Source of the DNA: Caballeronia sp. Lep1P3
GTDB lineage: Bacteria; Pseudomonadota; Gammaproteobacteria; Burkholderiales; Burkholderiaceae
Assembly (NCBI RefSeq): GCF_022879595.1
Contig: NZ_CP084268.1
Coordinates: 186,001 to 250,000 of the forward strand
Direction: 5' to 3'
Length of the DNA stretch: 64,000 bases
Under the pieces are notes generated by a model. The model was not told the origin of the DNA. It did not search any database and saw only the letters and a list, made by a program, of their open reading frames with translations. Shown here one piece after another: positions 12,825 to 38,219 of the stretch (positions are counted from its first letter, which is position 1; each line of letters begins with the position of its first letter). Both the position numbers and the translations under genes were made by a program.

Positions 12825-12847
12825 TCGCCGGGTTGAGCCGCAAAAAG

Positions 12848-12879
12848 GCCGCGCCAGCGCTGCAACAGGCTGGCGCGGC
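12848..12879 (+). terminator. Intrinsic terminator after the phosphoesterase gene
   Basis: Perfect 11-bp stem GCCGCGCCAGC (12848-12858) with GCTGGCGCGGC (12869-12879), 10-nt loop, preceded by AAAAAG and followed by TTCGTTT. It begins 24 bp past the stop and ends before the peroxidase start at 12914. Confidence 0.8.
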
Positions 12880-12913
12880 TTCGTTTCACTTCATCTGGGC
12901 TGCCACCGTCGTC

Positions 12914-14335
12914 ATGAGTTCGACTCACTCCGTATTGCCCCCGACGCTTCCCTCGACGCGCAAGCGTCCGCTCGCACATACGATCGTCTGGGCGATGACC
13001 GTCGCCGCCGCGGGCTGCGCGGCCTTCGTCGCTTACGCGGCCATCCATCCCGAGCAAGTGCCGCTTGCAGTCGGCGAGATCGTCGAAGCGCTCACCGGCG
13101 CGAATCCGCAACCGGTCGCGCTGCATGTCCCGCCGAGCCAGCCGTTGAGCGCCGTCGCGCTTCTCGGCAAGCAGATATTCAATGACCGGTCGCTGTCGGC
13201 GTCCGGCAAGCAGTCGTGTGCCTCGTGTCATAGCCCCGAGCACGCGTATGGGCCGCCCAACGATCTATCGGTGCAACTCGGCGGCCCGCATCTGACGGAC
13301 GTGGGCTACCGGCCACCGCCGTCGCTCGCTTACTTATATCGGCAGGCGCCGTTTTCCATCGGTCCCGATCAGAACGACATGGACGCCGCACCCGTCACGC
13401 TCGATCAACTCGCGACGGCCGCGAGCGGCACGCAGCGCGCGGTGAAGACAGCGGGCGCCGCGCCCGCGGCCCCGGCGCTCGTTCCGCAAGGCGGGCTCTT
13501 CTGGGATGGCCGCGCGAGCACGCTTCAGGATCAGGCCATCGTTCCGATGTTGAACCCGGTTGAAATGGCGAATGCGAATACCGGCGAAGTCGTGCAGAAG
13601 CTCCTGAACGCGACGTACCTCGACCAGTTCAAGCAGCTTTTCGGCGACAGGATCGTGAGCCAGCCCGACCTTCTCGTCGATGAAGCGATGTTCGCGGTCG
13701 GACGTTATCAATTCGAAGACCCATCGTTTCATCGCTTCACGAGCAAATACGATTACTGGCTGCAAGGCAAGGCGCGTCTCACGCAGGCCGAGTTGCACGG
13801 CCTGCGCCTCTTCAACGATCCCGACAAGGCGAACTGCGCAGGTTGTCATTTGAGCAAGCCGAGCGCCGACCGTCTGCCGCCGCTTTTCACGGACACGCAA
13901 TACGAAGCGCTGGGCGTGCCGCGCAATCGCAATCTTCCGATCAACAGGAATCCCAACTTTTATGACATGGGCGTATGCGGTCCCTTCCGCACCGATGCGG
14001 CCACACTGACGCAATACTGCGGCATGTTCCTTACGCCGACGCTGCGCAACGTCGCGACGCGCCACACGTTCTTTCATAACGGCGTATATCGCGACCTGAA
14101 GCAGGTAATAGACTTCTATAACCTGCGCGGCACGAATCCGGAGAAGATTTATCCGCACGATGCATCGGGCAAGCCGATGCAATACGACGATCTGCCGGCG
14201 AAGTATCACGCGAACATCGATGTCGCCGACGCGCCGCTCAATCGCAAGCCGGGCGACACGCCCGCCATGACCGACGACGAAATCAAGGACATCATCGCGT
14301 TCCTGAACACGCTGACGGACGGATACAAGCCCTGA
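12914..14335 (+). CDS. Di-haem cytochrome c peroxidase/MauG family protein
   Basis: 473 aa. Two c-type haem sites are visible: CASCH at 102-106 and CAGCH at 308-312. The N-terminus (RKRPLAHTIVWAMTVAAAGCAAFVAYAA) is a signal anchor or uncleaved signal, so the enzyme acts in the periplasm. The motif FLTPTLRNVATRHTFFHNG near 405 is family-typical. It reduces hydrogen peroxide with electrons from small cytochromes, or acts as a MauG-like modifying enzyme. The start is set at 12914, after the terminator; an open frame continues upstream but overlaps the phosphoesterase gene. It converges on the deacylase gene with only 6 bp between stops. Confidence 0.92.
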   Translation: MSSTHSVLPPTLPSTRKRPLAHTIVWAMTVAAAGCAAFVAYAAIHPEQVPLAVGEIVEALTGANPQPVALHVPPSQPLSAVALLGKQIFNDRSLSASGKQSCASCHSPEHAYGPPNDLSVQLGGPHLTDVGYRPPPSLAYLYRQAPFSIGPDQNDMDAAPVTLDQLATAASGTQRAVKTAGAAPAAPALVPQGGLFWDGRASTLQDQAIVPMLNPVEMANANTGEVVQKLLNATYLDQFKQLFGDRIVSQPDLLVDEAMFAVGRYQFEDPSFHRFTSKYDYWLQGKARLTQAELHGLRLFNDPDKANCAGCHLSKPSADRLPPLFTDTQYEALGVPRNRNLPINRNPNFYDMGVCGPFRTDAATLTQYCGMFLTPTLRNVATRHTFFHNGVYRDLKQVIDFYNLRGTNPEKIYPHDASGKPMQYDDLPAKYHANIDVADAPLNRKPGDTPAMTDDEIKDIIAFLNTLTDGYKP

Positions 14336-14341
14336 CGCGCG

Positions 14342-15505
14342 CTATTGAAACAGGCCGGCCGTCGCGAGATGGCCGGCAAGCCGCGCGAGCATCGCATCGC
14401 ACGCATGGAGTTGTTCGACGCTCACGAACTCATCGGGCTTGTGTCCCTGATCCATGCTTCCCGGACCGCACACAACGGCGGGAATGCCCGCCTGATCAAA
14501 CAGGCCGCCTTCGCTGCCAAAGGCGACCGTGCCGAAGTCGCTCGAGCCGCAAAGCCCTGCAAGAAGCCGCGCCGCTTCGCTTTCCGGCGGCGTGACGAGG
14601 CCCGGATACGCAGAGAGCGCTTGCAGGCGGATATCGGTCTCGCGCTGCACCGCGCGCATCTTCGGCAGCAGTTCCGCTTCGGCGTAAGTCCGCAGAGCGT
14701 CGGCGACGGTGTGCGCGTCGAAGCCCGGCAGCGCGCGCACTTCGAAGTCGAACTCACATTGCTCCGGCACGATGTTGAGCGCGCGGCCGCCTTTTATCAT
14801 GCCTGTCTGCACCGTCGAATAAGGCGGATCGAAGCGCGCGTCGTGATGCTGCGGCTGCGCGAGCTGCTCGCCGATCGTCTCGAGCCGCGTGACGAGACGC
14901 GCCGCGTATTGAATGGCGTTCACGCCATACGGTGCATAAGCGGAATGGCAAGGCGCGCCCTTCACGTGACAACGCATCGCGAGCTTGCCCTTGTGACCCA
15001 GCACGGGCTTGAGTTCCGTCGGCTCCCCGATGATGCAGAGCACCGGCTTATGCGGGCGCTTTTCGAGTTCGGCGAGCATCGGACGAACGCCGAGACAGCC
15101 GACTTCCTCGTCATAAGAAAACGCAAGATGCACCGGCAGCTTCAACTCGCGCGCGACGAACTGCGGCACCGCCGCGAGCACCGACGCGATAAAGCCCTTC
15201 ATATCGGCCGTGCCGCGCCCGTAGAGGCGGCCTTCGCGTTCGGAGAGGCGAAACGGTTCGACCGTCCACGCCTGCCCGTCCACCGGCACGACATCCGTAT
15301 GACCGGAAAGCACGATACCGCCGCGATCGCGCGGACCGATGGTCGCGAAGAGATTGGCCTTGGTGCGCTCGTCGTTGTAGAAGAGTTCGCTTTCTACGCC
15401 GTATTGCGCGAGGTAATCGCGAATGAACGCGATCATGTCGAGATTCGAGTCGCGGCTGACAGTCGCGAAACGGATCAGCGCTTCGAGCAACGCACGGCTC
15501 GACAT
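14342..15505 (-). CDS. ArgE/DapE-family M20 deacylase (acetylornithine deacetylase-like)
   Basis: 387 aa zinc hydrolase. The metal-binding motifs are SGHTDVVPVD, YGRGTADMKG and YDEEVGCLG, followed by the lid domain and a late H (MDQGHKPDEF). It is close to ArgE in length and sequence style and cleaves N-acyl amino acids. The start at 15505 (MSSRALL) has GGAG nine bases upstream; Mets at 15514 and 15529 overlap the upstream gene. It is last in the minus-strand cluster flavin monooxygenase, RidA-like, DUF1028, deacylase, so a catabolic role on an N-acylated or amide intermediate is more likely than arginine synthesis. That role is inferred. Confidence 0.87.
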   Translation of the reverse strand: MSSRALLEALIRFATVSRDSNLDMIAFIRDYLAQYGVESELFYNDERTKANLFATIGPRDRGGIVLSGHTDVVPVDGQAWTVEPFRLSEREGRLYGRGTADMKGFIASVLAAVPQFVARELKLPVHLAFSYDEEVGCLGVRPMLAELEKRPHKPVLCIIGEPTELKPVLGHKGKLAMRCHVKGAPCHSAYAPYGVNAIQYAARLVTRLETIGEQLAQPQHHDARFDPPYSTVQTGMIKGGRALNIVPEQCEFDFEVRALPGFDAHTVADALRTYAEAELLPKMRAVQRETDIRLQALSAYPGLVTPPESEAARLLAGLCGSSDFGTVAFGSEGGLFDQAGIPAVVCGPGSMDQGHKPDEFVSVEQLHACDAMLARLAGHLATAGLFQ

Positions 15506-15506
15506 G

Positions 15507-16184
15507 TCACTCATCTCCCGGCACGCCATAGCTCGGCGCGGCGGTCGGATTCAGCGCGCGCGTCACATAGTCCTGCATCTGCGGCCGATACGCATGCCAC
15601 AGTTCTTCGAGCTTGCCGACAGGATCGTCATCGGCCCAGTCGACGCGCAGATCGACGATGGGCCAGACTAAGTCGCTCACGATCCTGAGCGCCGCCGAAT
15701 GCACCGGCCCCGCTTCGCCGCCCTTCGCCATTGCAGCGCGCATGGCCGCAAGCAGGCGATCGGCAAGCGCGCCCGATGTCTCTTCGAACGCACGCGGCAT
15801 GGCTTCGATCACCTCGATGCTCGTCAGCATGTTGCCCGCCGCCACGCATTGAACGCCCGCTGTTGCATGATGCGTTCCGAGCGCCTCGTTGCCTGTGAAG
15901 AACGCAGTGCGCCCTTGCGCATCGATCACCGTGACTTGCCGATACGCGTTCCATTCGTCGGTGCGAAGCGCGTGATCGAGCGCGGTCGATGCATCGCTTC
16001 GTTCGTTCTCCATATGGTCCAGAATACGCGGTCCGAGCGCGGGCAGCGTGACGTTTTGCGTCGCGACGGCGCCGACGCCCGCGCGCAGCCACGGACACCG
16101 CGCGCCCACCGCGATGCTCGACGAACTAATGGCGATGCCGAGTTGCCCGGTCTTCTCGCAACGTCCGACGATTGAAAAGGTCAT
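15507..16184 (-). CDS. DUF1028 protein (Ntn-hydrolase-like)
   Basis: 225 aa, full length for DUF1028. The N-terminus TFSIVGRCEKTGQLGIAISSSSIAVGARCPW and the stretch GVGAVATQNVTLPALGPRILD are characteristic. The family belongs to the N-terminal-nucleophile hydrolase superfamily; Thr2, exposed after Met removal, would be the nucleophile. Biochemistry is poorly known; genome neighbours in many bacteria are RidA, peptidases and amino-acid transporters. Its stop falls within the ribosome-site region of the deacylase (15505), so the pair is coupled. Probably an amidase acting on a small nitrogen compound. Confidence 0.85.
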   Translation of the reverse strand: MTFSIVGRCEKTGQLGIAISSSSIAVGARCPWLRAGVGAVATQNVTLPALGPRILDHMENERSDASTALDHALRTDEWNAYRQVTVIDAQGRTAFFTGNEALGTHHATAGVQCVAAGNMLTSIEVIEAMPRAFEETSGALADRLLAAMRAAMAKGGEAGPVHSAALRIVSDLVWPIVDLRVDWADDDPVGKLEELWHAYRPQMQDYVTRALNPTAAPSYGVPGDE

Positions 16185-16221
16185 GCGTCCTCCGTGAGCG
16201 TTCGAAGTTGAAGGATCAGGA

Positions 16222-16653
16222 TCAAGGCGCGGTCCAGCCCTCGGGAATCACCGCGATGACATCGATTTCCATCAGCCATTCCGGTTGACCGAGGGCGACC
16301 ACGGTCAGTCCCGTCGAGATGGGATAGACGCCCTTGAGCCATTTGCCGACTTCACGATACACCGGCTCGCGAAAGCGCACGTCCGTCAGATACGTCGTCG
16401 TCTTCACGATATGCGAGAGATCGCTGCCCGCTTCATCGAGCAACTGCTTGACGTTTTTCATCGCCTGCTCCGCCTGCGCGCGCGGATCGCCGAGTCCGAT
16501 TAAATTGCCCTCGAAGTCAGTACCGATCTGACCGCGCACATAGACCGTGTTGCCGGCGCGCACGGCTTGGCAGAGATCGTTGTCGAGCGTCTGGTTCGGG
16601 TACGTATCCTTCGTATTGAACATGCGGATGCGGGTGTGCGTAGGTTCGCTCAT
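16222..16653 (-). CDS. RidA/YjgF-family protein lacking the canonical active-site Arg
   Basis: 143 aa, full length. The family pattern is present: VRAGNTVYVRGQIGTD, GDPRAQAEQAMKNVKQLLDEAGSDLSHIVKTTTYLTD and the C-terminal MEIDVIAVIPEG. Canonical RidA imine deaminases have Arg in the segment matching YPISTGLTVVAL; here Ser113 is at that place. This puts it in an Arg-less Rid subgroup, whose chemistry is mostly unknown. It sits between the DUF1028 gene (37 bp after its stop) and the flavin monooxygenase, so it probably handles an intermediate of that pathway rather than 2-aminoacrylate. Confidence 0.85.
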   Translation of the reverse strand: MSEPTHTRIRMFNTKDTYPNQTLDNDLCQAVRAGNTVYVRGQIGTDFEGNLIGLGDPRAQAEQAMKNVKQLLDEAGSDLSHIVKTTTYLTDVRFREPVYREVGKWLKGVYPISTGLTVVALGQPEWLMEIDVIAVIPEGWTAP

Positions 16654-16709
16654 TTAACGCCTCGATGCCTGAATGTATGAATGACTTCTTTAGCCGATGC
16701 CTTATTAAC

Positions 16710-18056
16710 TCACGCCCATTTCGCTTGCCTTGTGCACGCGCGATTGGCCTTGAGCGCCTTGCACGCTCTCTGTGCGATGACCTTTTCGGCATCGCGCCGC
16801 GGCGTGTCGTAGTAAGCAAGATACTTGCGCTGCGTGACGATGTGATCGGCAATGTGCTTGGCGTCGTGCCACACGCCCCAGATGAACGCGGAGCCACGGC
16901 GCGAGAGCCACGGCAAGCCGAGAAAATAAACGCCCGGTTCCTTCGATACACCTCGCTGATGCTTCGGCTTGCCCGTCTCGTCGAACGCGTCCACTTGAAG
17001 CCAGCGGAAGTCCACTGCGTATCCCGTCGCCCAGATGATCGACGTCACGTTCGCGCTTGCGAGATTCAGTTCGAGAATCGGATGTGTCATGCAATCCGGA
17101 TCGGGCGGAATGATGCGCGCCTCCGGTTCGTCCGGAAGCACGAGGCCATTGCGTGCCGCATACGCGTCGGCGGCATCGAGCAGCGACAAGTAGTTTTCGT
17201 CACCGCGCGCGATGTTTTCCGCCAGATCGGGTTGGAACGTGGCCACGCCATCGTCGAACGATTTCGTCAGCCCAACGAGCGTCACGCCCTGATGCGCAAG
17301 ACGCCTGAAGTCCACGGTATGCCCGCCTCGCGCGCCGCTCACGGCAATCGTGACGTGCTCTTTGCCGGGCCGCATGACTTCCGCATCCCACTCGCCGAGC
17401 ACGCCGAGCCACCAGCAGAAATCGCGTCCGCGATACGCGCGCGGCGGACGGTCATGCGGCCCGACTGACAAATACACTTGCCGCCCCGCGCGCTGCAATT
17501 CATCGGCTATCTGCACACCCGACGAGCCCGCGCCCACCACCAAAACGGCGCCCTCGGGCAATTGCTGCGGATTGCGATAGTCGGCGGAATGAATTTGCGT
17601 AAGCCGCGCATCGTCTGGCGCGATGCGTGGAATGAGCGGACGCTGGAACGGTCCCGTTGCAACGACGACGCGATTCGCCTCGATCACGCCCTCCGATGTC
17701 TCGACCGTGAATCCGGGGCGGCCCACGTTGCGCGCGACCTTCGTGACTTCCACGCCCGTGCGAATGGGCGCATCGAATTTACTCGCATAAGCGACGAAAT
17801 AATCCGCGACCTGCTCCTTGCCGGCAAACGCATTCGGGTCGATATCCGCGAACTCCTGATTCGGAAATCGATCATGCCAGGCTGGACCGTTGGCGACGAG
17901 TGAATCCCACCGCCCTGTGCGCCAGCGTTCCGCGATACGCGCACGCTCCAGCACGAGATGCGGCACGCCCGCGCGGGTGAGGTGTTCGCTCATGGCGACA
18001 CCGGCCTGTCCCGCACCGACCACGAGGGTATCGATTGACGTCGTTTCCACTGTCAT
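16710..18056 (-). CDS. NAD(P)/FAD-dependent flavin monooxygenase (class B type)
   Basis: 448 aa. It has an FAD Rossmann motif GAGQAG near residues 14-19 and a second motif GAGSSG for NADPH near the middle (VLVVGAGSSGVQIADEL). The family features WATGYAVDFRWL and GVYFLGLPWLSRRGSAFIWGV are in the C-terminal third. Such enzymes oxygenate N or S atoms or do Baeyer-Villiger chemistry. The start MTVETTS at 18056 has AAGGA seven bases upstream; the open frame extends 69 bp further without homology. It is the first gene of the minus-strand set and diverges from a LysR gene, which may control it. Confidence 0.88.
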   Translation of the reverse strand: MTVETTSIDTLVVGAGQAGVAMSEHLTRAGVPHLVLERARIAERWRTGRWDSLVANGPAWHDRFPNQEFADIDPNAFAGKEQVADYFVAYASKFDAPIRTGVEVTKVARNVGRPGFTVETSEGVIEANRVVVATGPFQRPLIPRIAPDDARLTQIHSADYRNPQQLPEGAVLVVGAGSSGVQIADELQRAGRQVYLSVGPHDRPPRAYRGRDFCWWLGVLGEWDAEVMRPGKEHVTIAVSGARGGHTVDFRRLAHQGVTLVGLTKSFDDGVATFQPDLAENIARGDENYLSLLDAADAYAARNGLVLPDEPEARIIPPDPDCMTHPILELNLASANVTSIIWATGYAVDFRWLQVDAFDETGKPKHQRGVSKEPGVYFLGLPWLSRRGSAFIWGVWHDAKHIADHIVTQRKYLAYYDTPRRDAEKVIAQRACKALKANRACTRQAKWA

Positions 18057-18254
18057 GACTGTGTCCTTCGGGAAAGCGGATGAATGCGATGCCTTTGAGC
18101 CTTCGCATCTTCGTATCCGTCGCAATCTACGCGCCGACGTCGAATCCGAAAAATATATTTAAAAAATGACTAGCATCGGATTTGGCTATGCAGCGTTTTT
18201 TGATCGCCGCACAATGCACGAAATGAGGGAGAAGAAAAAGCCGGAGTCATGTCG

Positions 18255-19181
18255 ATGGAAAGCCATCCTTTGCGCTATTCGCTGCGTCAGTTGCGCTACT
18301 TCGTCGTCACTGCCGAAGCCTTGTCCTTCACGGCGGCGGCCAAGCGTCTGCATATATCGCAGCCGTCCATTTCCACCGCGCTTGCGGAGCTCGAAGTGTC
18401 GTTCGGCGTGCAGCTTTTCATACGTCATCACGCAAGCGGGCTGTCCCTGACGCAAGCGGGACGCGACCTTCTTGGCCAGGCGCGCAATCTGCTGAAGATT
18501 GCAGAAGAATTGCAGATGGCCGCCAAGGAAATGGATGGCGGCATGACGGGCAGCATCGCGCTCGGCTGTCTGGTTTCGCTTGCGCCGCCGCTCATGCCGG
18601 GCCTCATCAGCCGTTTCACGGACGAGCACGCAGGCATCTCCTTTCGCACGGTGGAGGCGCATCAAGATGCGCTCCTGAGAGGCTTGCACGACGGCTCGCT
18701 CGATATCGCGCTCACATATAGCCTGGACCTTAGCGAAGACATTGCCTTCACGCCGCTGCTTTCCTTGCCGCCCTATGCGATCTTGCCAAGGACGCATCGC
18801 CTTGCCCGCGCACGCAAGGTCTCGCTCGCCGATCTCTTGCCCGAGCCTTATGTGATGCTCGACTTGCCGCATAGCCGCGAGTATTTCGCTGCTCTCTTCG
18901 ACGCTGTCGGCAGCCGCCCGGTGCCCGCGTTTCGGTCCTCGCAGCCCGAAGTCGTGCGCGGCATGGTGGCCAACGGTCTCGGCTACAGCCTGCTCAATTT
19001 CCCGCTCAAATCGAATCGCACCGTGGACGGCGAAGAGTTCGTGATTAAACGTTTCAAGGACAACGTCAACGCGACGATGCTCGGCATCGCGCAATCGCGG
19101 ACCATGAAGCCGCGTCAGGTCGTCCATCGTTTCGCGTCGTTCTGCGAGAACTATATCCGGCGCCTGCACTTGCAGTCATGA
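18255..19181 (+). CDS. LysR-family transcriptional regulator
   Basis: 308 aa. The N-terminal helix-turn-helix reads SLRQLRYFVVTAEALSFTAAAKRLHISQPSISTALAELE, followed by the linker helix and a periplasmic-binding-like effector domain. Start MESH at 18255 is preferred because GGAG lies eight bases upstream; the Met at 18249 is only two bases from it. It is divergent from the flavin monooxygenase and 175 bp upstream of the Rieske gene, so it can control both arms. It is clearly paralogous to the LysR at 24913-25818: both share SRxYFxxLF and SxxLVRGMVxxGxGYS-type sequence in the effector domain. Confidence 0.92.
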   Translation: MESHPLRYSLRQLRYFVVTAEALSFTAAAKRLHISQPSISTALAELEVSFGVQLFIRHHASGLSLTQAGRDLLGQARNLLKIAEELQMAAKEMDGGMTGSIALGCLVSLAPPLMPGLISRFTDEHAGISFRTVEAHQDALLRGLHDGSLDIALTYSLDLSEDIAFTPLLSLPPYAILPRTHRLARARKVSLADLLPEPYVMLDLPHSREYFAALFDAVGSRPVPAFRSSQPEVVRGMVANGLGYSLLNFPLKSNRTVDGEEFVIKRFKDNVNATMLGIAQSRTMKPRQVVHRFASFCENYIRRLHLQS

Positions 19182-19356
19182 GTCGCGCATGCAACGCGCG
19201 CTGCATAGTCAAAACCTTTGCGCTGTATCCGAAAACAATATTTTGGCTGGCAATTTGGCTTGATAGATTGATGTCCATGCTCCAGCGGGCCGCTCGCGAG
19301 AGAGATGAAAGCCTTGTGCGGCGCGCTCATCGAAGAAATCGAGGCAGGAGGACTTC

Positions 19357-20505
19357 ATGGATAACCCGGTGACGAAAACGCGCGTACAGGCGCTCGTCGA
19401 CGAACTGCGGACCGGTTGCGAACGGTCATTCAGCGAAGCGCGCGCCATGCCGCCGGGTGTCTATACGTCGCCTGAATTTCTGGCGCTCGAAGAGCGCGAC
19501 ATCTTTGCGCGCGAATGGCAATGCGTGGGCCGCGCAAGCGCGCTTAAGGCGCCGGGCGATTATCTGACCGCCCGCATAGGCGATCAGCCGATCGTCGTGT
19601 TGCGCGACGAAGCAATGCAGATCAAGGCGATGTCCAACGTGTGCCTGCATCGCATGTCGGTGCTGCTGGAAGGACGCGGTAACGTGCGGCGCATCGTGTG
19701 TCCGTATCACGCATGGAATTATTCACTCGATGGCGCGCTAAAGGGCGCGCCTTTAATGGACCGGCAAGAAGGCTTCTGCAAGGAGAGCTATCGGCTGCCC
19801 GCGATCCGCTGCGAACAATGGCAAGGCTGGATCTATGTGACGCTCGATGAAAACGCGGCGCCTGTCGCGACGAAGCTCGCGGAATTGAGCGAACTCATCG
19901 GCGCATACGGCATGGCGGACTACATCGAAACTTTCTATGAAGAGCATGTGTGGGACACCAACTGGAAGATCCTCGCCGAAAACTTCATGGAGAGCTATCA
20001 CCTGCCGATGCTTCATCGCGCGACTGTCGGCCCGCATTCGAAGCTGGAGGACATGGAATGCCCGCCGGGTCGCGCGGCGTTCAACTATCACTGGATCACC
20101 AAGGAAGCGAGCCTGCCCATCGGCAACGCGCATCCCGACAACACGCGCCTCTCTGGACACTGGCGCAAGACCACGGCCTTGCTCGCGATCTATCCGACGC
20201 ATCTCGTCACGCTCACGCCGGGTTATTTCTGGTATCTGGTGCTGCAGCCGCAAGGCGTGGGACAAGTGCATATTGGTTTCGGCGGCGGACTTGCGCCGGA
20301 ATTCGTCGCGGACCCGCAAGCAAACGCGCATATGGCGACGCTCAAGAAGTTGCTCGACGAAGTAAATGCGGAAGACCGGCGCGGCGTGCAGGCGGTCTTT
20401 CGCGGTGTGCATGCGCCGCTTGCGAAGCCGGGCCATCTGAGTCATCTCGAACGGCCGAATTACGACTTCGCGCGCTATATCGCGTCAAGGCTCGCGCAGC
20501 ACTGA
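19357..20505 (+). CDS. Rieske-type ring-hydroxylating/demethylating oxygenase alpha subunit
   Basis: 382 aa. The Rieske centre is C96-L-H98 with C115-P-Y-H118, 16 residues apart. The mononuclear iron site is in LAENFMESYHLPMLHR, with H215 and H220. AGGAGGA five bases before the ATG is the strongest ribosome site in the region. The length and the sequence around the iron site resemble the GbcA/choline-carnitine monooxygenase branch, which attacks quaternary amines, more than large aromatic dioxygenases; this is judged by eye. No ferredoxin reductase gene is nearby, so reductase must come from elsewhere. It heads the transcript that continues into the ABC importer 14 bp later. Confidence 0.9.
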   Translation: MDNPVTKTRVQALVDELRTGCERSFSEARAMPPGVYTSPEFLALEERDIFAREWQCVGRASALKAPGDYLTARIGDQPIVVLRDEAMQIKAMSNVCLHRMSVLLEGRGNVRRIVCPYHAWNYSLDGALKGAPLMDRQEGFCKESYRLPAIRCEQWQGWIYVTLDENAAPVATKLAELSELIGAYGMADYIETFYEEHVWDTNWKILAENFMESYHLPMLHRATVGPHSKLEDMECPPGRAAFNYHWITKEASLPIGNAHPDNTRLSGHWRKTTALLAIYPTHLVTLTPGYFWYLVLQPQGVGQVHIGFGGGLAPEFVADPQANAHMATLKKLLDEVNAEDRRGVQAVFRGVHAPLAKPGHLSHLERPNYDFARYIASRLAQH

Positions 20506-20519
20506 ACAGACAGGACTCA

Positions 20520-21707
20520 ATGACGATGTCGACCCCTTCCTTCATTTCGTTCTCGGGCGTGAGCAAATCGTATGACGGCGCGCACTATGTCGTCGACGAT
20601 CTGAACCTCGACGTGCGCAAGGGAGAATTCCTGTCGCTGCTCGGGCCATCGGGATCGGGCAAGACGACGACGCTCATGATGCTCGCGGGTTTCGAGTCGC
20701 CCACGCATGGCGAGATTCGACTCGACGGCAAACGGCTCGACGACAAGCCGCCGCATCAGCGCGACATCGGAATGGTGTTCCAGAACTACGCGCTGTTCCC
20801 GCATCTGACGATTGCCGAGAACGTCGCCTTTCCGCTTTCGGTGCGGCGTGTGAGCCGCGCGGAGCAAAAGACGCGCGTGAAGCGCGCGCTCGAGATGATC
20901 GAGTTGCCGCATCTCGGGAACCGCCGTCCGGCGCAATTGTCCGGCGGACAGCAGCAGCGCGTGGCGCTCGCGCGCGCGCTCGTATTCGAGCCGAGCGTCG
21001 TGTTGATGGACGAACCGCTCGGCGCGCTCGACAAGCGGCTGCGCGAAACGATGCAATACGAAATCATGCGGCTGCATCGCGAGTTGTCGCTGACGATCGT
21101 TTATGTCACGCACGATCAGGCCGAAGCGCTCACGATGTCCGATCGCGTCGCCGTGTTTTCCGATGGCCGCATTCAGCAGGCCGCGACGCCCACCGAGTTG
21201 TATGAGAACGCGCACAACGCATTCGTCGCGAACTTCGTCGGCGAGAACAACGGTCTGATGGGGCGCGTCGTCAACGTGGATCAACGGTGGGCAACGCTCG
21301 CGTTATCGGACGGCAACATGATTCGCGGACGCTGCGAAAGCGGCCTTCTTCCCGGCGACGAAGCCATGCTCGCGCTGCGTCCCGAACGCGCGCATATCCC
21401 GGGCGCCGAAAGCGCGCGCGCGGACGGGCACAGCAACGTGGTGCGCGCGCGCGTCGAGGAACTGGTGTATTGCGGCGACCATCATCGCGTGCATCTGACG
21501 CTCGGCTCCCGCGATTCGATGGTCGTGAAAGTGCCCAACACGCAGCGTCATGCACTGCCGCGTGCGGGCGATCACATCGAAGTGGCATGGCGTCACGACG
21601 ACTGCAAGATTCTCGCGGCAGCCGCGCCACGCAGCGCGCCCGCCATTCAATCCCCCACCGCGCCTTCACCATCCATCATCAAGACCGCACCCGCAGGAGC
21701 CAACTGA
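20520..21707 (+). CDS. Polyamine/opine-type ABC transporter ATP-binding protein (PotA-like)
   Basis: 395 aa. Walker A GPSGSGKTT is at residues 42-50; also present are the Q-loop VFQNYALFPHLT, signature LSGGQQQRVALARAL, Walker B VVLMDEPLGALD and switch H in VTHDQAEAL. After about residue 240 comes a TOBE-type regulatory domain (ALRPERAHIP, VEELVYCGDHHRVHL). The tail is Ala/Pro-rich. The start codon is the ATG at 20520; a second in-frame ATG is at 20526. It energises the importer formed with the genes at 21709-24904. Confidence 0.92.
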   Translation: MTMSTPSFISFSGVSKSYDGAHYVVDDLNLDVRKGEFLSLLGPSGSGKTTTLMMLAGFESPTHGEIRLDGKRLDDKPPHQRDIGMVFQNYALFPHLTIAENVAFPLSVRRVSRAEQKTRVKRALEMIELPHLGNRRPAQLSGGQQQRVALARALVFEPSVVLMDEPLGALDKRLRETMQYEIMRLHRELSLTIVYVTHDQAEALTMSDRVAVFSDGRIQQAATPTELYENAHNAFVANFVGENNGLMGRVVNVDQRWATLALSDGNMIRGRCESGLLPGDEAMLALRPERAHIPGAESARADGHSNVVRARVEELVYCGDHHRVHLTLGSRDSMVVKVPNTQRHALPRAGDHIEVAWRHDDCKILAAAAPRSAPAIQSPTAPSPSIIKTAPAGAN

Positions 21708-21708
21708 C

Positions 21709-22773
21709 ATGCGCAATCAACTCAAAGCACAATGCGCCGCACTCGCCGCAGTCGCCGTAGTCGCCGCTTCCACTTTCGGCGCGGCGACTGCTCACGCAGC
21801 GGAAACGCTCAACGTCGTGACATTCGGCGGCGCGTTCGAAGCCGCTGCGAAGAAGGCCTGGTTCGATCCCTTCACGCAGGCAACGGGCGTGACGTTCTCG
21901 ACCGAATCGTATGACGGCGGCCTGGCTAAGCTCTCCGCGATGGAGCAGGCGAAGAACACCACATGGGACCTGATCGACCTCGAAAGCAACGATGCAATCA
22001 CAGGCTGCGACGAAGGCCTACTCAAGAAGTTCGACAAGGCTTCGCTCGGCAAGACGAGCGACTTCATTCCCGGTTCGATCAGCGATTGCGCGGTCGCGAG
22101 CATGGTGTGGTCCACCGTCTATGCATATGACACGAGCAAGCTCAAGACCGCGCCCACGACCGTCAACGACTTCTTCGACTTGCAGAAATTCCCCGGCAAG
22201 CGCGGCCTGCGCAAGTCGCCCAAGGTGGCGATGGAGTGGGCGCTGATTGCGGACGGCGTCGATCCGAAGGACGTGTACAAGGTGCTCGGCACGCCGGCCG
22301 GCGTAGACCGCGCATTCAAGAAGCTCGACACGATCAAGAAGAACATCGTGTGGTGGGAGTCCGGCGCACAGGCGCCGCAACTTCTCGCGGATGGCGCCGT
22401 GGTCATGGTGCAGGCCTATAACGGCCGCATCGACGACGCGGTCAAGCGCGACCACAAGCCCTTCAAGGCAGTGTGGGACGGCCAGCTCTACGACTTCGAA
22501 TGGTGGGGCATTCCGACCGGCGCGAAGCACGCGGATACGGCTGCGAAGTTCATCGTCGCTTCGTCGCAGCCGAAGGCGTCGGCTGACTTGTCGAAGTACA
22601 TCGCGTATGCGCCGCCGCGCAAGGATGCGATCCCGCTCGTCGACAAACAGCGTCTCGCCGATCTGCCGACCGCACCGGACAACTTCAAGCGCGCGCTGCA
22701 AGTCAATGCAACGTTCTGGGCCGACAATGCGGACGCCATCAACAAGCGCTTCCAGGTCTGGCTCACGCAATAA
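21709..22773 (+). CDS. Polyamine/opine-type ABC transporter substrate-binding protein
   Basis: 354 aa periplasmic protein. A Sec signal peptide is cleaved near residue 30 (ATAHA/AETLNVVTFGG). The mature start is typical of the PotD/PotF-like group. Ligand-contacting aromatics are likely in WDLIDLES and IVWWESGAQAPQLLADG. GGAG lies nine bases before the ATG, which is one base after the ATPase stop codon. Two Cys residues (C in ITGCDEG and SDCAV) could form a disulfide. Ligand unknown; the neighbouring oxygenases suggest a nitrogen-containing compound. Confidence 0.9.
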   Translation: MRNQLKAQCAALAAVAVVAASTFGAATAHAAETLNVVTFGGAFEAAAKKAWFDPFTQATGVTFSTESYDGGLAKLSAMEQAKNTTWDLIDLESNDAITGCDEGLLKKFDKASLGKTSDFIPGSISDCAVASMVWSTVYAYDTSKLKTAPTTVNDFFDLQKFPGKRGLRKSPKVAMEWALIADGVDPKDVYKVLGTPAGVDRAFKKLDTIKKNIVWWESGAQAPQLLADGAVVMVQAYNGRIDDAVKRDHKPFKAVWDGQLYDFEWWGIPTGAKHADTAAKFIVASSQPKASADLSKYIAYAPPRKDAIPLVDKQRLADLPTAPDNFKRALQVNATFWADNADAINKRFQVWLTQ

Positions 22774-22797
22774 GCCAGCGCGCGACGAGAGTTCGAC

Positions 22798-24051
22798 ATG
22801 ACCGTATCGGCCCACGCTGCAGCCGCCGGCTCTCCGACGAGAGCCGAAGGCCGCGAAAGCTACCGCAAGGCACAGCATCGCGCGGCGCTTCGCGCGCTCT
22901 TGCTCGCGCTGCCGTTGCTCGTGTTTCTGTTGTCCACGTTCATCGCACCGATCGCGTTGCTACTCGCACGCAGCGTGCAGAACCACGAAGTGCCGGACAG
23001 CATGCCCGCCCTCTCGCGCGCGCTCGATGCATGGGACGGCGAAGGCTTGCCGAACGAGCATACGTTCGCGCTGCTTGCGTCGGGACTTGCGCAAGCGCGC
23101 GACAGCGGGCAACTCGGCAACGTGGCGCGACGTCTGAACTTCGCGCAGCCCGAGTTCCGCAGTCTTCTGATGAAGACCGCGCGCAGCGTTCGCGATGAAA
23201 AGCCGCCCGCATGGAAGCCAGCGCTCATCGAGATCGACGAGCGCTGGCGCTCGCCGGAAATATGGCGCCTTTTGAAGCGCGCGGCGCAATCGCCGACGCC
23301 TGACTATTTGCTCGCCGCCGTCGATGCGCAAGTCACGCCGCAAGGCTCGATCGCTTCGGTGCCATCTAACGCGGCCGTTTATCGCGAGGCGTTCGCGCGC
23401 ACCATTTCGATCAGCGCGACGGTCACGCTCCTGTGTCTCGTGCTGGGCTATCCGGTAGCGTGGCTGCTGGCGAACTTGCCCGCGAAAAGCAGCAACCGCC
23501 TGATGCTCTTTGTGATCGTGCCGTTCTGGACTTCATTGCTCGTTCGCACGACCGCGTGGTATGTGCTGTTGCAGCCGGGCGGCGTCATCAACAGTCTCAT
23601 GATGGGGCTCGGCCTCGCGACGCATCCGTTGCCGCTCATCTTCAATCGAACCGGCGTGTTGATCGGCATGACGCATGTGCTTCTGCCGTACATGATCCTC
23701 GCCATCTATTCGGTGATGAAGAGCGTACCGCCCGTCTATGTGCGCGCCGCGAAGTCGCTCGGGGCGCATCCGTTCATCGCGTTCGTGCGCGTGTACATGC
23801 CGCAGACGCTGCCCGGCGTCGGCGCGGGCTGCTTTCTCGTCTTCGTGCTCGCGCTCGGCTACTACATCACGCCGGCGCTGCTCGGCGGCGCGGGCGACGA
23901 GATGATCAGCCAGCTCATCGCCATTCAAACGAACGCGCAGCTCAACTGGGGACTCGCGGGCGCGCTTTCCGCGTATCTCGTGATCTTCACTGCCGTGTTC
24001 TATTTCCTGTTCAACCGCATCGTCGGCATCGACCGGTTACGCTTCGGTTGA
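22798..24051 (+). CDS. ABC transporter permease with large periplasmic insertion (PotB-like)
   Basis: 417 aa, about 110-130 residues longer than usual PotB permeases. The first membrane helix (about 33-58) is followed by a hydrophilic, helix-prone domain (about 60-195, rich in Arg, Glu and Ala) before five further helices. The EAA loop is VRAAKSLGAHPFIAFVRVYMPQTLPGVGAG. The insert would face the periplasm and could contact the binding protein. It sits 24 bp after the binding-protein gene and pairs with the permease at 24077. Confidence 0.9.
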   Translation: MTVSAHAAAAGSPTRAEGRESYRKAQHRAALRALLLALPLLVFLLSTFIAPIALLLARSVQNHEVPDSMPALSRALDAWDGEGLPNEHTFALLASGLAQARDSGQLGNVARRLNFAQPEFRSLLMKTARSVRDEKPPAWKPALIEIDERWRSPEIWRLLKRAAQSPTPDYLLAAVDAQVTPQGSIASVPSNAAVYREAFARTISISATVTLLCLVLGYPVAWLLANLPAKSSNRLMLFVIVPFWTSLLVRTTAWYVLLQPGGVINSLMMGLGLATHPLPLIFNRTGVLIGMTHVLLPYMILAIYSVMKSVPPVYVRAAKSLGAHPFIAFVRVYMPQTLPGVGAGCFLVFVLALGYYITPALLGGAGDEMISQLIAIQTNAQLNWGLAGALSAYLVIFTAVFYFLFNRIVGIDRLRFG

Positions 24052-24076
24052 TGCAGCGCGCATCGAGGAAACGTTC

Positions 24077-24904
24077 ATGCAAGACAAACGCAACACGGTG
24101 CTTACGGAACGCGTCGCCGCGCGCTGGGTGCGCCTGCATTCCGCGCTCGTGCTGCTGTTCCTGATCGCGCCTATTCTTGCGATCATCCCGCTTTCGTTTA
24201 ATTCGGGTTCCTACTTTTCGTATCCCATGCAAGGCTTCTCGATGCGCTGGTATCAACAGGCCTTGACGAGCCCCGACTGGCAGCGTGCACTCGTGAACAG
24301 CCTCGGCATCGGCGCGGCGTCCACGATCATCGCAACGTGTCTCGGCACGCTCGCCGCGCTCGGGCTCTCGCGTGCGCAGTTTCCGCTGCGCTCGGTCATC
24401 ATGCCGATCATCATTTCACCGATGATCGTACCTATCGTCGTGGTCGCGGCGGGCTTCTATCTGATCTTCGCGCCGCTCGGCCTCGTCAATTCGTATCCGG
24501 GCGTGGTCCTCGCGCATGCGGCGCTCGGCACGCCGTTCGTCGTCATCACCGTGACGGCTTCGCTGCTCTCGTTCGATCAAAGCCTGCTGCGTGCGGCGTC
24601 CGGTCTCGGTGCATCGCCGTGGACCGGGTTCAGGCGCGTGACCTTGCCGCTCATCACGCCGGCGGTTGCAACCGGAAGCGTGTTCGCATTCGCAACCTCG
24701 TTCGACGAAGTGATCGTCATTCTGTTCATCGGCGGGCCGGAACAGAAGACCGTGCCGCGGCAGATGTGGAGCGGAATACGCGATTCCATCGATCCATCGA
24801 TTCTCGCCGTCGCGACGATGCTGATCGTGTTCGCCGTGCTGCTCTTCGCGAGCATCAACTGGCTGCGGGCGCGCGCAGCCGCGGCGAGTCAGGCGCTCGT
24901 CTAG
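24077..24904 (+). CDS. ABC transporter permease (PotC-like)
   Basis: 275 aa inner-membrane protein with about six helices. The EAA loop is RAASGLGASPWTGFRRVTLPLITPAVATG, followed by FAFATSFDEVIVILFIGGPEQKTVPRQMWSG, which is typical of the PotC group. Second permease of the importer. It ends the plus-strand transcript Rieske, ATPase, binding protein, permease, permease, and converges with the LysR gene, only 8 bp between stops. Confidence 0.92.
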   Translation: MQDKRNTVLTERVAARWVRLHSALVLLFLIAPILAIIPLSFNSGSYFSYPMQGFSMRWYQQALTSPDWQRALVNSLGIGAASTIIATCLGTLAALGLSRAQFPLRSVIMPIIISPMIVPIVVVAAGFYLIFAPLGLVNSYPGVVLAHAALGTPFVVITVTASLLSFDQSLLRAASGLGASPWTGFRRVTLPLITPAVATGSVFAFATSFDEVIVILFIGGPEQKTVPRQMWSGIRDSIDPSILAVATMLIVFAVLLFASINWLRARAAAASQALV

Positions 24905-24912
24905 GCGTTGTT

Positions 24913-25818
24913 CTACGCGCGGAACGCTTCTTCCGCATAGTCGACGAAGCGTCGCGCGGGCGTCGTCAACGGGTTGCGCCTGAGCCACGCCGCTACGAGG
25001 CTCGAACGCGCGACGTCCTCCGCGATTTCCACCGACACCACTTCGTTGCCGTCATACGTGAGCGACGAAGGCGGCCGCGTGACGAGAATCGAGTAGCCGA
25101 AGCCTTGCCCTACCATGCCACGCACGAGTTCGAGCGATGGCGAACTGAAAGTCACGCGCGGCGTCAGCCCGAATGGTTTGAATAGATCGACGAAGTAGTC
25201 ACGGCTCGGCGCAACGTCGAGCAGGATGAGCGGTTCCTGATACACGTCGAAGAGACTGATTCTGGCTTGACCCGCCAATCGATGCGATGCCGGCAACAGC
25301 ACATAAGGGCTTTGCGGGCGCGTGAGAACGTGCGTTTCGACGCTCGCATCGAGGCCCAGCGGATAGACCATCACGAGATCGAAACGGCCTGCGAAAAGGC
25401 CTTGCAGCAGCTCGTCCTGATCGCCGTCGCGCACGCGTATCTCGATGCCCGGGTACACCGCGTTGAACCCGCGAATCAGCGCGGGAAGAAAGAGCGGCGC
25501 AAACGTCTCGAAGCAGCCTATGTCCACGCGTCCGGCCGATACATCCGCTTCGGCCAGCGTTTCCTGCTCGAATGCGCGGGCATTGCGCAACAACGCTTGA
25601 GCGCGTTCATAAAAGCGCGTGCCGGCAGGCGTAAGCGATATGCCTTGCGCGTGGCCTCTGATGAACAACTGCACGCCGAAGCTCTCTTCGAGCGCCTTGA
25701 TCGCGGCAGAAATCGACGGCTGCGCAATGAAGAGCCTGCGCGACGCTTCGGCGACGCTTCCGTGATCGACAGTCGCCACGAAATAACGGAGCTGTCGCAG
25801 CGTGAACGGTGCCGGCAT
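24913..25818 (-). CDS. LysR-family transcriptional regulator, paralogue of 18255-19181
   Basis: 301 aa. Helix-turn-helix TLRQLRYFVATVDHGSVAEASRRLFIAQPSISAAIKALE; effector domain with LLDVAPSRDYFVDLF and LELVRGMVGQGFGYSIL, which mirrors the upstream LysR. AGGGAG lies seven bases before the ATG. It lies downstream of the PhyH dioxygenase on the same strand (71 bp) and converges with the ABC permease. It may sense the same compound as its paralogue or a downstream metabolite. Confidence 0.92.
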   Translation of the reverse strand: MPAPFTLRQLRYFVATVDHGSVAEASRRLFIAQPSISAAIKALEESFGVQLFIRGHAQGISLTPAGTRFYERAQALLRNARAFEQETLAEADVSAGRVDIGCFETFAPLFLPALIRGFNAVYPGIEIRVRDGDQDELLQGLFAGRFDLVMVYPLGLDASVETHVLTRPQSPYVLLPASHRLAGQARISLFDVYQEPLILLDVAPSRDYFVDLFKPFGLTPRVTFSSPSLELVRGMVGQGFGYSILVTRPPSSLTYDGNEVVSVEIAEDVARSSLVAAWLRRNPLTTPARRFVDYAEEAFRA

Positions 25819-25889
25819 GCCCGCGCTCCCTGGAAAAGACGTGAACCGATGGTATCAGGCCGATTTTCCACGGGCGTCGGCAACGACAT

Positions 25890-26681
25890 TCATCCGACAA
25901 AAGGGAACTCGTCTTCGGGCAAGGGATCGCCCGCTGATAGCCGTTGCGCGAGATGCCGATAAGGCGGCGACGTCTCGCCTCCGCGATCGACGTACACGGC
26001 ATCGTCGCCGAGCCATCTGAACGACACGACGCGGCGCGAATTCGAAGCCTGCCTGTTTCCAGGTGCGCCATGCACCGTATGAAAGTTGAACGCAATGGCA
26101 TCGCCGGGCATGAGGTCCCAGCCGAGAATGCGATATTCGTCGCGATTCGCCTCGATATCGGGCATTTCTTCCAGCCCGTTGGTCGCGCGGTCATATGCGA
26201 CGCCAGTGAACTTGCGCGGCGTGAAGAGCTTGCCCCATCGATGCGATCCGGCGACGAACTCCACGCATGTATCGCGCGGCACCGGATCGAGCGGCACCCA
26301 CATGCTGACGCTTTGCCGCGCGCTCACACAGTAATAGGGTTCATCGTGATGCCACGGTGTCGCCTTGTCCGCGCCCGGCTCCTTCACGAGCACATGTTCA
26401 TGGAAGATGCGTGCGCGCTCCGACTGCATCAGTTCGCGTGCGATGCGGGCCGCCGGACTTTCCTCGACGAAGCGTCGAAACGGTTCGATGCGTTGCCAGT
26501 TGCAATAGTCGCCGAAGAAGCGCCCCGTCGTCTTTCCGGCGGTGTAGTCGCGAAAGTCCGGCCCCGGCTGAGTGACGTTCATCTCCACGCCCGAGCGCAA
26601 TGCCGCAATCCAGTCCGTGAATACACCGCGCAATACAGCGGCGCCATCCCGCGCAAACGCTTCCTTCTCTTCTTCCAGCAT
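25890..26681 (-). CDS. Phytanoyl-CoA dioxygenase (PhyH) family Fe(II)/2-oxoglutarate oxygenase
   Basis: 263 aa. The iron triad is H111-x-D113 in WHHDEPYY and H204 in FHTVHGAPGN; an Arg in SNSRRVVSFR probably binds 2-oxoglutarate. The stretch MWVPLDPVPRDTCVEFVAGSH is typical of PhyH proteins. GGAGG lies six bases before the ATG. Such enzymes hydroxylate or demethylate small molecules, including ectoine and halogenated or N-methyl compounds. Placed at the edge of the Rieske/importer block and codirectional with a LysR gene, it may add a further oxidation step. Substrate unknown. Confidence 0.88.
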   Translation of the reverse strand: MLEEEKEAFARDGAAVLRGVFTDWIAALRSGVEMNVTQPGPDFRDYTAGKTTGRFFGDYCNWQRIEPFRRFVEESPAARIARELMQSERARIFHEHVLVKEPGADKATPWHHDEPYYCVSARQSVSMWVPLDPVPRDTCVEFVAGSHRWGKLFTPRKFTGVAYDRATNGLEEMPDIEANRDEYRILGWDLMPGDAIAFNFHTVHGAPGNRQASNSRRVVSFRWLGDDAVYVDRGGETSPPYRHLAQRLSAGDPLPEDEFPFVG

Positions 26682-28112: not shown

Positions 28113-28859
28113 TCAGCGCAGACCGCCGCTCGCGACAATGCTTTCGCCGGTCAGCCAGCGCGCATCGTCGGACGCGAGAAACACCGCAACCGATGCGATA
28201 TCGTCCGGTTGACCGAGGCGGCCGAGCGGCGTCTGCGCGAGCACGCCCGCTTCCATATCCGAGCCGATGATGCCCGAGCTTTGCGTGCCTTCGGTCACGA
28301 CCATGCCGGGGTTGATCGAATTCACGCGAATCTTTTTCGCGCCGAGCTCGCGTGCAAGCACGCCCGTGATGGCATCCACCGCGCCTTTCGTTCCGCTATA
28401 GACCGCGCTTCCCGGCGGCGTGATGCGGCTCACGACCGAACTCACGTTGATGATGCTCGCGCCTTCGCCGAGATGCTTCGCGGCCGCCTGCGTGACGAGC
28501 AGAACGCCCAGCACGTTCACGTTGAACTGCTTGTGGAAGTGCTCTTCGGTGATCTCTTCGATCGGCGCGAACTCGTAGACGCCCGAGTTGTTCACGACGA
28601 TATCGAGCCGGCCATACGTTTCCACCGCCGCATTCACGATGCCTTTCGCATCCGCCGCGCTCGATACATCGCCCGCGACCGCGATGGCCTTGCCATTCGC
28701 CGCGGTGATGTCGGCGACGACCGCATCGGCGCCCGCCCTGCTGCTTGCATAGTTGACGACCACTGAAGCGCCTTCTGCGGCGAGCGCCTTGGCGATGGCC
28801 GCGCCGATACCCTTCGATGCACCGGTGACGAGGGCCACCTTGCCTGCGAGCTTGCTCAT
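28113..28859 (-). CDS. SDR-family oxidoreductase (3-oxoacyl-ACP reductase-like)
   Basis: 248 aa classical short-chain dehydrogenase. TGASKGIG near residues 12-19 binds NAD(P); NNSG near 87; catalytic Ser in INVSSVVS, Tyr and Lys in YSGTKGA (YxxxK). Start at MSKLAGK (28859) because AAGGA is seven bases upstream. It is 189 bp downstream of the 3-hydroxyisobutyrate dehydrogenase-family gene and may have its own promoter. Substrate cannot be set. Confidence 0.9.
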   Translation of the reverse strand: MSKLAGKVALVTGASKGIGAAIAKALAAEGASVVVNYASSRAGADAVVADITAANGKAIAVAGDVSSAADAKGIVNAAVETYGRLDIVVNNSGVYEFAPIEEITEEHFHKQFNVNVLGVLLVTQAAAKHLGEGASIINVSSVVSRITPPGSAVYSGTKGAVDAITGVLARELGAKKIRVNSINPGMVVTEGTQSSGIIGSDMEAGVLAQTPLGRLGQPDDIASVAVFLASDDARWLTGESIVASGGLR

Positions 28860-29048
28860 GATCATTTCCTTGAAAGAGAGTCTCAATTCGAACGATGCGA
28901 ACGATGCGACAGGCGGCTGATCGATACGACCGAACCGCCATGTCCGCAATGTAGACGCGTCATCGTGACCGATAAAGCGGCTGCTAATGAATTGACTGAC
29001 TGGAAATGACGAACAATGCGGCGTCAGGAAAGCGCGGGGCGTTTCGCG

Positions 29049-37931: not shown

Positions 37932-38057
37932 GAAATCGTTTGCGCTCGACGCAGCGTCAATTCCTAGCGTCAATTCCCTTAGAAAAGCCCGGTATTTATT
38001 CATCGGCGTGAGCTTCCGTGATACCGTACGCGGGCTTTTCTCTAACGGGAAAAGCGC

Positions 38058-38218
38058 GTTCTCGGGGCGGGGTGCGATTCCCCACCGGCGGTAATCGTTC
38101 GCTGAAGCGGACGTAGCCCGCGAGCGCTCGTGCCACGCTCTTCGCAAGAGTGCGCGGCCGAGGTCAGCAGACCCGGTTGGATTCCGGGGCCGACGGTATA
38201 GTCCGGATGAAAGAGAAC
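38058..38218 (+). promoter_or_regulatory. FMN riboswitch (RFN element)
   Basis: Closing stem P1 is GTTCTC (38058-38063) with GAGAAC (38213-38218). Conserved aptamer blocks follow in order: GGGGTGCGATTCCCCACCGGCGGTAA, AGCCCGCGAGCGC, GGTCAGCAGACCCGGT, GATTCCGGGGCCGACGGT and ATAGTCCGGATGAAAGAGAAC. This is the textbook RFN pattern. It lies 91 bp upstream of a lumazine synthase gene and is followed at once by a terminator hairpin, so FMN would stop transcription of that gene. Confidence 0.96.
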
Positions 38219-38219
38219 A

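Follow-up and report, generated by a model that had tools for sequence, protein, structure and literature searches.

A predicted imidazole-4-acetate catabolic unit with a Rieske oxygenase and importer arm in Caballeronia sp. Lep1P3

The window analyzed here is a 64-kb stretch of the Caballeronia sp. Lep1P3 genome (6.18 Mb in six contigs; window C4:186001-250000, on NZ_CP084268.1), which carries an island of oxygenase, hydrolase, importer, and LysR regulator genes between 14.3 and 26.7 kb. We propose, with a probability of about 0.62, that this island is a catabolic unit for imidazole-4-acetate (ImAA), extended at its front end by a divergent arm of a Rieske oxygenase and an ATP-binding cassette (ABC) importer. 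In that case, the island would join a new front end to a catabolic trunk that is already known. The identity of the trunk, a hinFLHG-type operon, is well supported; new here is the Rieske/importer extension, which shares a sequence motif with the hin genes.

A preliminary description of this DNA had listed oxygenases, a RidA-like protein, a DUF1028 protein, an ArgE-like deacylase, an importer, and two LysR regulators, and open frames and Pfam matches place these genes where it had put them (the two permeases, outside the Pfam scan, by open frames only). Its label of an uncharacterized island stands for the Rieske/importer extension and falls for the minus arm, which has the published hinFLHG order and enzyme classes; its statement that no described pathway has these genes fails there as well. 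A named trunk, from ImAA to aspartate, replaces an unknown pathway, and what is left to explain comes down to a single enzyme and a single importer. The features are as follows, in window coordinates.

14342..15529, minus: hinG-like ArgE-type M20 deacylase, predicted N-formyl-aspartate deformylase; TIGR01892 411.9 bits (cut-off 297.7), NF005710 585 bits (cut-off 412); final gene of the hinFLHG-like order
15507..16184, minus: hinH-like DUF1028 protein, predicted Ntn-hydrolase-type amidase; PF06267 234 bits
16222..16653, minus: hinL-like RidA-family enamine/imine deaminase without the canonical Arg; PF01042; TIGR00004 65.7 bits, below the cut-off of 106
16710..18056, minus: hinF-like FAD monooxygenase, predicted ImAA monooxygenase; Pyr_redox_3/FMO-like matches; TIGR04046 375 bits, below the cut-off of 498
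18181..18192, minus: operator-like site TGCATAGNNNAA in the hinF-LysR1 gap, one of two in the 64 kb; this gap carries the site in 64 of 76 relatives
18249..19181, plus: LysR1, predicted regulator of both arms; 221 bits to PDB 6m5f/3fzv; in 78 of 79 loci
19202..19213, plus: operator-like site TGCATAGNNNAA in the LysR1-Rieske gap, the other of the two; this gap carries the site in 60 of 78 relatives
19357..20505, plus: Rieske oxygenase alpha subunit, group Va-like; Pfam Rieske and Ring_hydroxyl_A; CntA the best PDB match; F210-M211-E212 invariant in 23 rows
20520..21707 (start 20520 or 20526), plus: ABC importer ATPase; TIGR01187 365.6 bits (cut-off 355.6; query began at 20589)
21709..22773, plus: periplasmic binding protein of the γ-aminobutyric acid (GABA)/opine group; PDB matches 8jv1 (SAR11 PotD with GABA), 6dgv, 6hly, and 4eq7
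22798..24051, plus: ABC permease 1; open frame; in 76 of 79 loci; annotated as ABC transporter permease in the syntenic record L100
24077..24904, plus: ABC permease 2; open frame; in 76 of 79 loci; same annotation in L100
24913..25818, minus: LysR2, HinK-like regulator, accessory in this clade; 433 bits over 298 residues to PDB 6m5f/3fzv; in 7 of 79 loci
25890..26681, minus: PhyH-family Fe/2-oxoglutarate dioxygenase, accessory; PF05721 91 bits; MysH the nearest solved sequence (E 9.5e-29); in 19 of 79 loci

The minus arm and the hin pathway

The genes of the minus arm, separated by gaps of -23 to 56 bp, encode a flavin monooxygenase, a RidA-like protein, a DUF1028 protein, and an ArgE-like deacylase, the classes and order of hinFLHG, and we consider it very likely that the arm is such an operon. 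In Pseudomonas putida U and P. aeruginosa, hinFLHG is reported as needed to convert ImAA, an intermediate of histamine breakdown, to aspartate; HinF is an FAD-monooxygenase (EC 1.14.13.5), HinL an enamine deaminase, HinH an amidase, HinG an amidase (EC 3.5.1.8), and HinK a LysR protein that senses ImAA (PMC6467879, PMC8231116). Carrying these steps over from the published work on relatives, we expect that HinF would oxygenate ImAA to the imidazolone, that HinH and HinL would between them open the ring and remove the imine nitrogen, and that HinG would take formate off N-formyl-aspartate to give aspartate.

Other contexts of the same module give independent support for this identity. In Pseudonocardia, an aspartate ammonia-lyase gene lies directly after it; in Acetobacter, it occurs with alcohol- and aldehyde-oxidizing enzymes and a cytosine-type permease; and two Burkholderia records combine it with a cytosine-type permease and a LysR protein 64 to 65% identical to LysR2.

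The RidA-like protein has a Thr at what we take to be the position of the catalytic Arg of canonical RidA, and it falls below the cut-off of the canonical RidA model (TIGR00004), in agreement with its earlier description as Arg-less. The DUF1028 gene is the only match to its family in the genome. Its relatives are labeled "uncharacterized Ntn-hydrolase superfamily protein" in one source, and a literature search on DUF1028 and COG3342 returned no matching paper; DUF1028 proteins in such operons would now gain a likely role, that of HinH. An assignment of the flavoprotein to MSMEG_0569 of Nit1C clusters (TIGR04046) was rejected by score.

The DUF1028 protein is also matched by 105 Klebsiella plasmid records. 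On a Klebsiella pneumoniae plasmid (L097) and in Pantoea (L098), hinL-hinH-hinG, hinF, and an ABC importer stand with genes for a type II 3-dehydroquinase, a glutathione S-transferase, and a hydroxypyruvate reductase.

Association of the two arms

Relatives of the Rieske protein were collected by a contig scan (153 stretches; the best 80 of 144 relatives, giving 79 loci), and genes were counted there at 40% identity (60% for LysR2) and half length. The closest Rieske matches among these best 80 come from Paraburkholderia, Caballeronia, Burkholderia, and Pandoraea; locus L022 is that of Paraburkholderia xenovorans LB400, a soil strain kept in laboratories. LysR1, the ATPase, and the binding protein are each present in 78 of the 79 loci and each permease in 76, together with hinL in 75, hinH in 74, hinG in 66, and hinF in 65; HpaB (11), PhyH (19), and LysR2 (7) are less frequent. 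When only the 62 loci of at least 20 kb are considered, hinL is found in 62, hinH in 61, hinG in 56, and hinF in 53, with HpaB in a further 9, and all four steps are represented in 56. HinL plus HinF or HpaB lie near the Rieske gene in all 62, within 4.6 kb in 61 and up to 10.5 kb away in L085. The arrangement is far from chance.

Given that these relatives are closely related, we sampled more widely. Among six alphaproteobacterial plasmid records with a Rieske protein at 56 to 66% identity, five (L088, L089, L090, L101, and L102) hold the complete set of hin genes in about 12 kb, arranged in other orders. In an evenly drawn sample of 398 Pseudomonadota genomes (397 without our own), which is not independent of phylogeny, the Rieske protein occurs in 8 at E ≤ 1e-60, 7 of them at 54% identity or more. 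A HinH orthologue occurs in 35 at E ≤ 1e-56, a cut-off chosen after the table had been seen, and in 59 at E ≤ 1e-20. With our own genome left out, HinH is present in 5 of the 6 Rieske genomes (at least 54% identity) versus 34 of 397 overall (Fisher P = 2e-5); in four of these five, HinH is at most 5 kb from the Rieske gene, and in G091 it is on another contig. The preliminary description had staked its reading in part on the two arms traveling together; they do so in relatives and in the genome sample, and they share an operator-like motif.

The window has just two copies of this motif, TGCATAGNNNAA, one per divergent gap (18192, minus; 19202, plus); base frequencies predict 0.14 sites for the window and 0.0008 for the gaps. 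Its scarcity makes no fair test, since the pattern was picked after the window had been inspected; the stronger point is that two different promoters carry the same sequence. Of the hinF-or-HpaC-to-LysR1 gaps in 78 loci, 64 of 76 carry it, as do 60 of 78 LysR1-Rieske gaps (within 30 bp); 1.55 Mb contains 132 sites in total, and the counts in relatives partly reflect common descent. A pattern tried earlier, CGAAAA, 1 to 4 bases, and TATT, is likewise confined within the window to these two gaps and is less common in relatives, with 29 of 65 and 38 of 78 of their gaps. Within the plus arm, gaps from the Rieske gene to the second permease are 1 to 25 bp long. It is very likely that both arms form one regulon. 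LysR1 may bind at the TGCATAGNNNAA sites and would then switch both arms through a shared operator, with LysR2 as a HinK-type ImAA sensor. The two proteins are paralogs, as previously described (41% identity), and the genome has no third LysR of this kind at E ≤ 1e-40. Both match PDB 6m5f/3fzv, LysR2 by far the better (433 versus 221 bits). Of the two regulators in the earlier picture of the island, LysR2 is optional.

An HpaB-type protein takes the place of HinF in some loci, the L069 type of Caballeronia locus among them, a replacement that is also new here: the two are together in none of the 79, and three truncated loci have neither. Among the best 30 HinH loci of the genome sample, 25 have HinF, 4 have HpaB or HpaC, and 1 has neither in 3.7 kb. 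At 227 bits, below the HpaB cut-off of 480, the protein is best called a relative of HpaB, and we predict that it is a second, nonhomologous ImAA monooxygenase. HutD is annotated beside HpaB only in L103; a similar-looking gene in L155 has no NCBIfam match. In L153 (G277), HpaB, Rieske, HpaC, RidA, and DUF1028 types form one same-strand run, with no M20 gene in 17.6 kb.

The Rieske oxygenase, the importer, and the PhyH protein

The nearest solved relative of the Rieske protein is CntA (E 4e-35, over residues 29 to 220 only), work on which defined group Va by two residues, an aromatic one at position 203 and the bridging Glu205 (PMC7948474). The corresponding residues here, F210 and E212, do not vary across an alignment of 23 relatives (36 to 100% identity), which makes the protein group Va-like and supports, at these two diagnostic residues, its earlier comparison with quaternary-amine enzymes. 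For the other pocket residues, the alignment with CntA ends at residue 220, and a structure model of the Rieske protein was poor (predicted local distance difference test [pLDDT] 38) and was set aside unused. Assignment as the glycine betaine monooxygenase GbcA (NF058607) was rejected at 138 bits against a curated cut-off of 670. A search of the genome for GbcB-type reductases gave 16 matches and none in the window, so the earlier remark that no reductase is encoded here holds, and there is no adjoining reductase of the kind modeled on CntB. The two strongest matches adjoin other Rieske genes (C2:40672 and C4:177191) and could serve the island's enzyme. A distant group V-type Rieske gene (36%) follows a true hutH at a distance of about 20 bp, and two hutC genes are found no more than 14 kb away.

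We imagine that the plus arm would import a zwitterionic imidazole compound through its GABA-type importer and that the Rieske enzyme, using a reductase encoded elsewhere, would turn it into ImAA or its direct precursor, through either oxidative N-dealkylation or cleavage of a C-N bond. That the Rieske enzyme feeds the ImAA trunk at all is, in our estimate, an even bet; N-dealkylation as its chemistry is a tentative suggestion, with the odds somewhat against it. Importer and oxygenase probably let this soil bacterium use an additional imidazole compound, N-alkylated or cationic. Since a HinF or HpaB orthologue is present in 6 of the 7 genomes bearing the Rieske protein, acting with HinF fits better than replacing it, and the two enzymes seem to act together.

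Further Rieske-type genes were seen around this arm. Eight loci (L041, L047, L052, L053, L054, L056, L066, and L085) have a second, different Rieske oxygenase, 68 to 73% identical to that of L085; five of the eight also have PhyH, and there it sits between LysR2 and PhyH. In L110 (10882-14250), and likewise in L011, a further Rieske-type gene lies beside the importer, together with an unnamed protein and a reductase resembling GbcB (142 bits against a cut-off of 500).

The importer had been labeled polyamine type. Its ATPase does pass the potA subfamily model (TIGR01187), but the label is weak for the binding protein, which falls far short of the PotD and PotF equivalog cut-offs (31.8 versus 582 and 22.2 versus 636 bits) and whose closest relatives among solved structures are binders of GABA, agropinic acid, and mannopine-type opines. 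Its model is of moderate quality (pLDDT 58), and fold matches were therefore used mainly for their entry titles; for one of them, 8JV1, a literature search found no paper. ImAA mimics GABA. PA0222, the binding protein beside the hin genes of P. aeruginosa, is reported to bind GABA at 0.29 µM and not to bind histamine; the word "imidazole" is absent from the main text of that paper, and ImAA was seemingly not among the ligands tried (PMC6829864).

The PhyH protein had been grouped with the island as its third oxygenase. The gene is there; it is also optional, immediately following the second permease in 10 of 11 HpaB loci and accompanying LysR2 in 7 hinF loci (the copies in L010 and L011 are distant), and may act as a second oxygenase for related substrates. 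The family is broad, with 3,441 proteins at E ≤ 0.001 and 31 of 398 genomes at E ≤ 1e-55. Five stretches around four relatives were checked for context. Near PhyH, G032 has hut-type genes, and G008 has a homologue of histidine ammonia-lyase that lacks the ASG motif; the stretches from G016 and G328 have no histidine-related context. PhyH and HinH co-occur in 10 of 30 genomes of the sample (P = 5e-5), which large genomes alone could produce. A match to MysH (104 bits) prompted us to consider mycosporine breakdown, which was dropped when no further support was noticed. In L197 (11161-12684), a histidine-ammonia-lyase homologue lacking the ASG (MIO) motif lies next to LysR and PhyH genes; it is perhaps an ergothionase-like lyase.

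Some neighbors of the island are named by reading their sequences. Phosphatase/phospholipase-like and cytochrome c peroxidase-like genes (10995-14335) flank it and are retained in only one of the 79 loci, L072. Just past it are genes for an alpha-hydroxy acid oxidase (29999-31234), a 3-hydroxyisobutyrate-dehydrogenase-like protein (29049-29999), and a short-chain dehydrogenase/reductase (28113-28949); the oxidase has no match across the 79 loci, and an alpha-hydroxy acid oxidase is also annotated next to hinF on a Klebsiella plasmid. The only Rfam match at gathering score in the window is a flavin mononucleotide riboswitch (38054-38222; RF00050, 105 bits).

Alternative readings and known systems

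The route sketched in the preliminary description, with a nitrogenous compound imported and then passed through oxidation, imine handling, and deacylation, is right in outline. Several observations weigh against our fuller reading of an ImAA trunk with a Rieske/importer front end. HinA, HinC, HinD, and HinI were not recognized in the island (14.3 to 26.7 kb). The DUF1028 protein is taken as HinH by gene order and class. Neither motif pattern is found at the LysR2 and PhyH promoters. PDB 6m5f/3fzv is taken by us to be HinK, the ImAA sensor; no PDB code was seen in passages of the HinK paper (PMC10912698). Formaldehyde dehydrogenase, expected for N-demethylation, was found with one adhC query in only L085 of the 79 loci, and also in L111. 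One alphaproteobacterial plasmid (L091; Rieske at 58%) has no hin gene in 29 kb, and G392 (54%) has no HinH or HinF/HpaB orthologue at the cut-offs used. In L152, an operon with HinL/H/G-type genes of its own begins with the Rieske gene, and HinF is elsewhere, about 12 kb from a second HinH; in L154, the Rieske gene is with HinH and HinG types, with no RidA in 19.5 kb and HinF elsewhere; in L150 and L151, its only neighbor of this kind is an M20 (ArgE-like) gene.

These last four arrangements also fit a Rieske enzyme that is a parallel ring oxygenase, substituting for HinF on a different imidazole acid and passing its product to the same HinL, HinH, and HinG. The Rieske gene of L152 indeed stands in hinF's place before RidA, DUF1028, and M20 genes, as it stands with DUF1028 and M20 genes in L154. 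Such a substitute should be found without HinF more often, however, than in a set where HinF or HpaB stays near the Rieske gene in every full-length locus, and the group Va residues suggest a cationic amine instead of attack on the ring; we consider this unlikely. One can also envision that the Rieske enzyme does the work of the HinC aminotransferase, removing the amino group of histamine, or of N-methylhistamines, by oxidation at the side-chain carbon, with a general aldehyde dehydrogenase completing ImAA. CntA is reported to cleave the quaternary amine carnitine oxidatively (PMC7948474), with release of trimethylamine, and no HinC/HinD-like gene was recognized in the island. However, the hin-linked records L088, L089, L090, and L101 show no annotated aldehyde dehydrogenase, and the binding protein is nearest to GABA/opine binders, with PA0222 reported not to bind histamine (PMC6829864), which makes this improbable. 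More improbable still are two separate pathways that are merely adjacent, ImAA on the minus arm and an unrelated betaine- or carnitine-like compound on the plus arm. A 44% Rieske relative with choline/sarcosine genes (L092) and the hin-free L091 would suit that idea, but the arms share the operator-like motif and co-occur in distant clades with different gene orders, as well as in the genome sample. Homarine/trigonelline catabolism, the first candidate, was rejected: no matching gene set appeared in the titles or abstract starts of the papers listed by a literature search, and the module's other contexts did not fit.

Within the reading of an ImAA trunk fed by the Rieske arm, a more specific version is speculative, and we doubt it. 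The arm would be the first dedicated entry to the ImAA pathway for N-methylated or quaternary imidazole-4-acetates (tele- or pros-methylimidazoleacetate or the 1,3-dimethylimidazolium betaine zooanemonin), with import by a GABA-type binder because ImAA resembles GABA, group Va demethylation, PhyH removing a further alkyl group in some strains, and HpaB/HpaC as a second, unrelated ImAA monooxygenase. tele-Methylimidazoleacetate is a main mammalian end product of histamine. Among the open-license papers listed for two or more of six imidazole-acetate, Rieske, or hinF terms, none contains "Rieske." If the Rieske enzyme does accept methylated imidazole-acetates, its gene would be a marker for bacterial removal of animal histamine waste products.

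The closest known system is hinFLHG (hin2) of P. putida U and P. aeruginosa (PA5390-PA5393), which has the same four enzyme classes in the same order and a HinK-kind LysR nearby. The island differs in having no recognized HinA, HinC, or HinD, in its divergent LysR-Rieske-ABC arm, in its two HinK-like LysR proteins and optional PhyH, and in the HpaB-type enzyme that replaces HinF in 11 of 79 relatives. The Rut uracil pathway (RutA-B-C) works alike, with a flavin oxygenase, an amidohydrolase, and a RidA-type deaminase, but is not a homologous set (RutC model, 32.7 bits; cut-off 169). MysH, a mycosporine-modifying dioxygenase, is nearest to the PhyH protein among solved sequences, whereas no mycosporine genes were noticed in the annotated records and two nearer PhyH relatives adjoin histidine-related genes. 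With the group Va oxygenases (CntA and the choline and benzalkonium monooxygenases), the Rieske protein shares the bridging Glu and the aromatic residue two before it, and its Rieske domain and the start of its catalytic domain align; the rest of that domain is not alignable with CntA, no reductase is adjacent, and the context is one of imidazole. The GABA/opine binders (Atu4243, Pf622, AgtB, MotA, and SAR11 PotD, of PotABCD-type importers) are the best solved relatives of the binding protein by sequence and by its model, although at only about 25 to 36% identity. All 13 binding-protein rows keep R240, the Arg in an NGR stretch, and have an acidic residue at E264, which matches the Pf622 sensor; presumably, these two residues hold the ends of the ligand.

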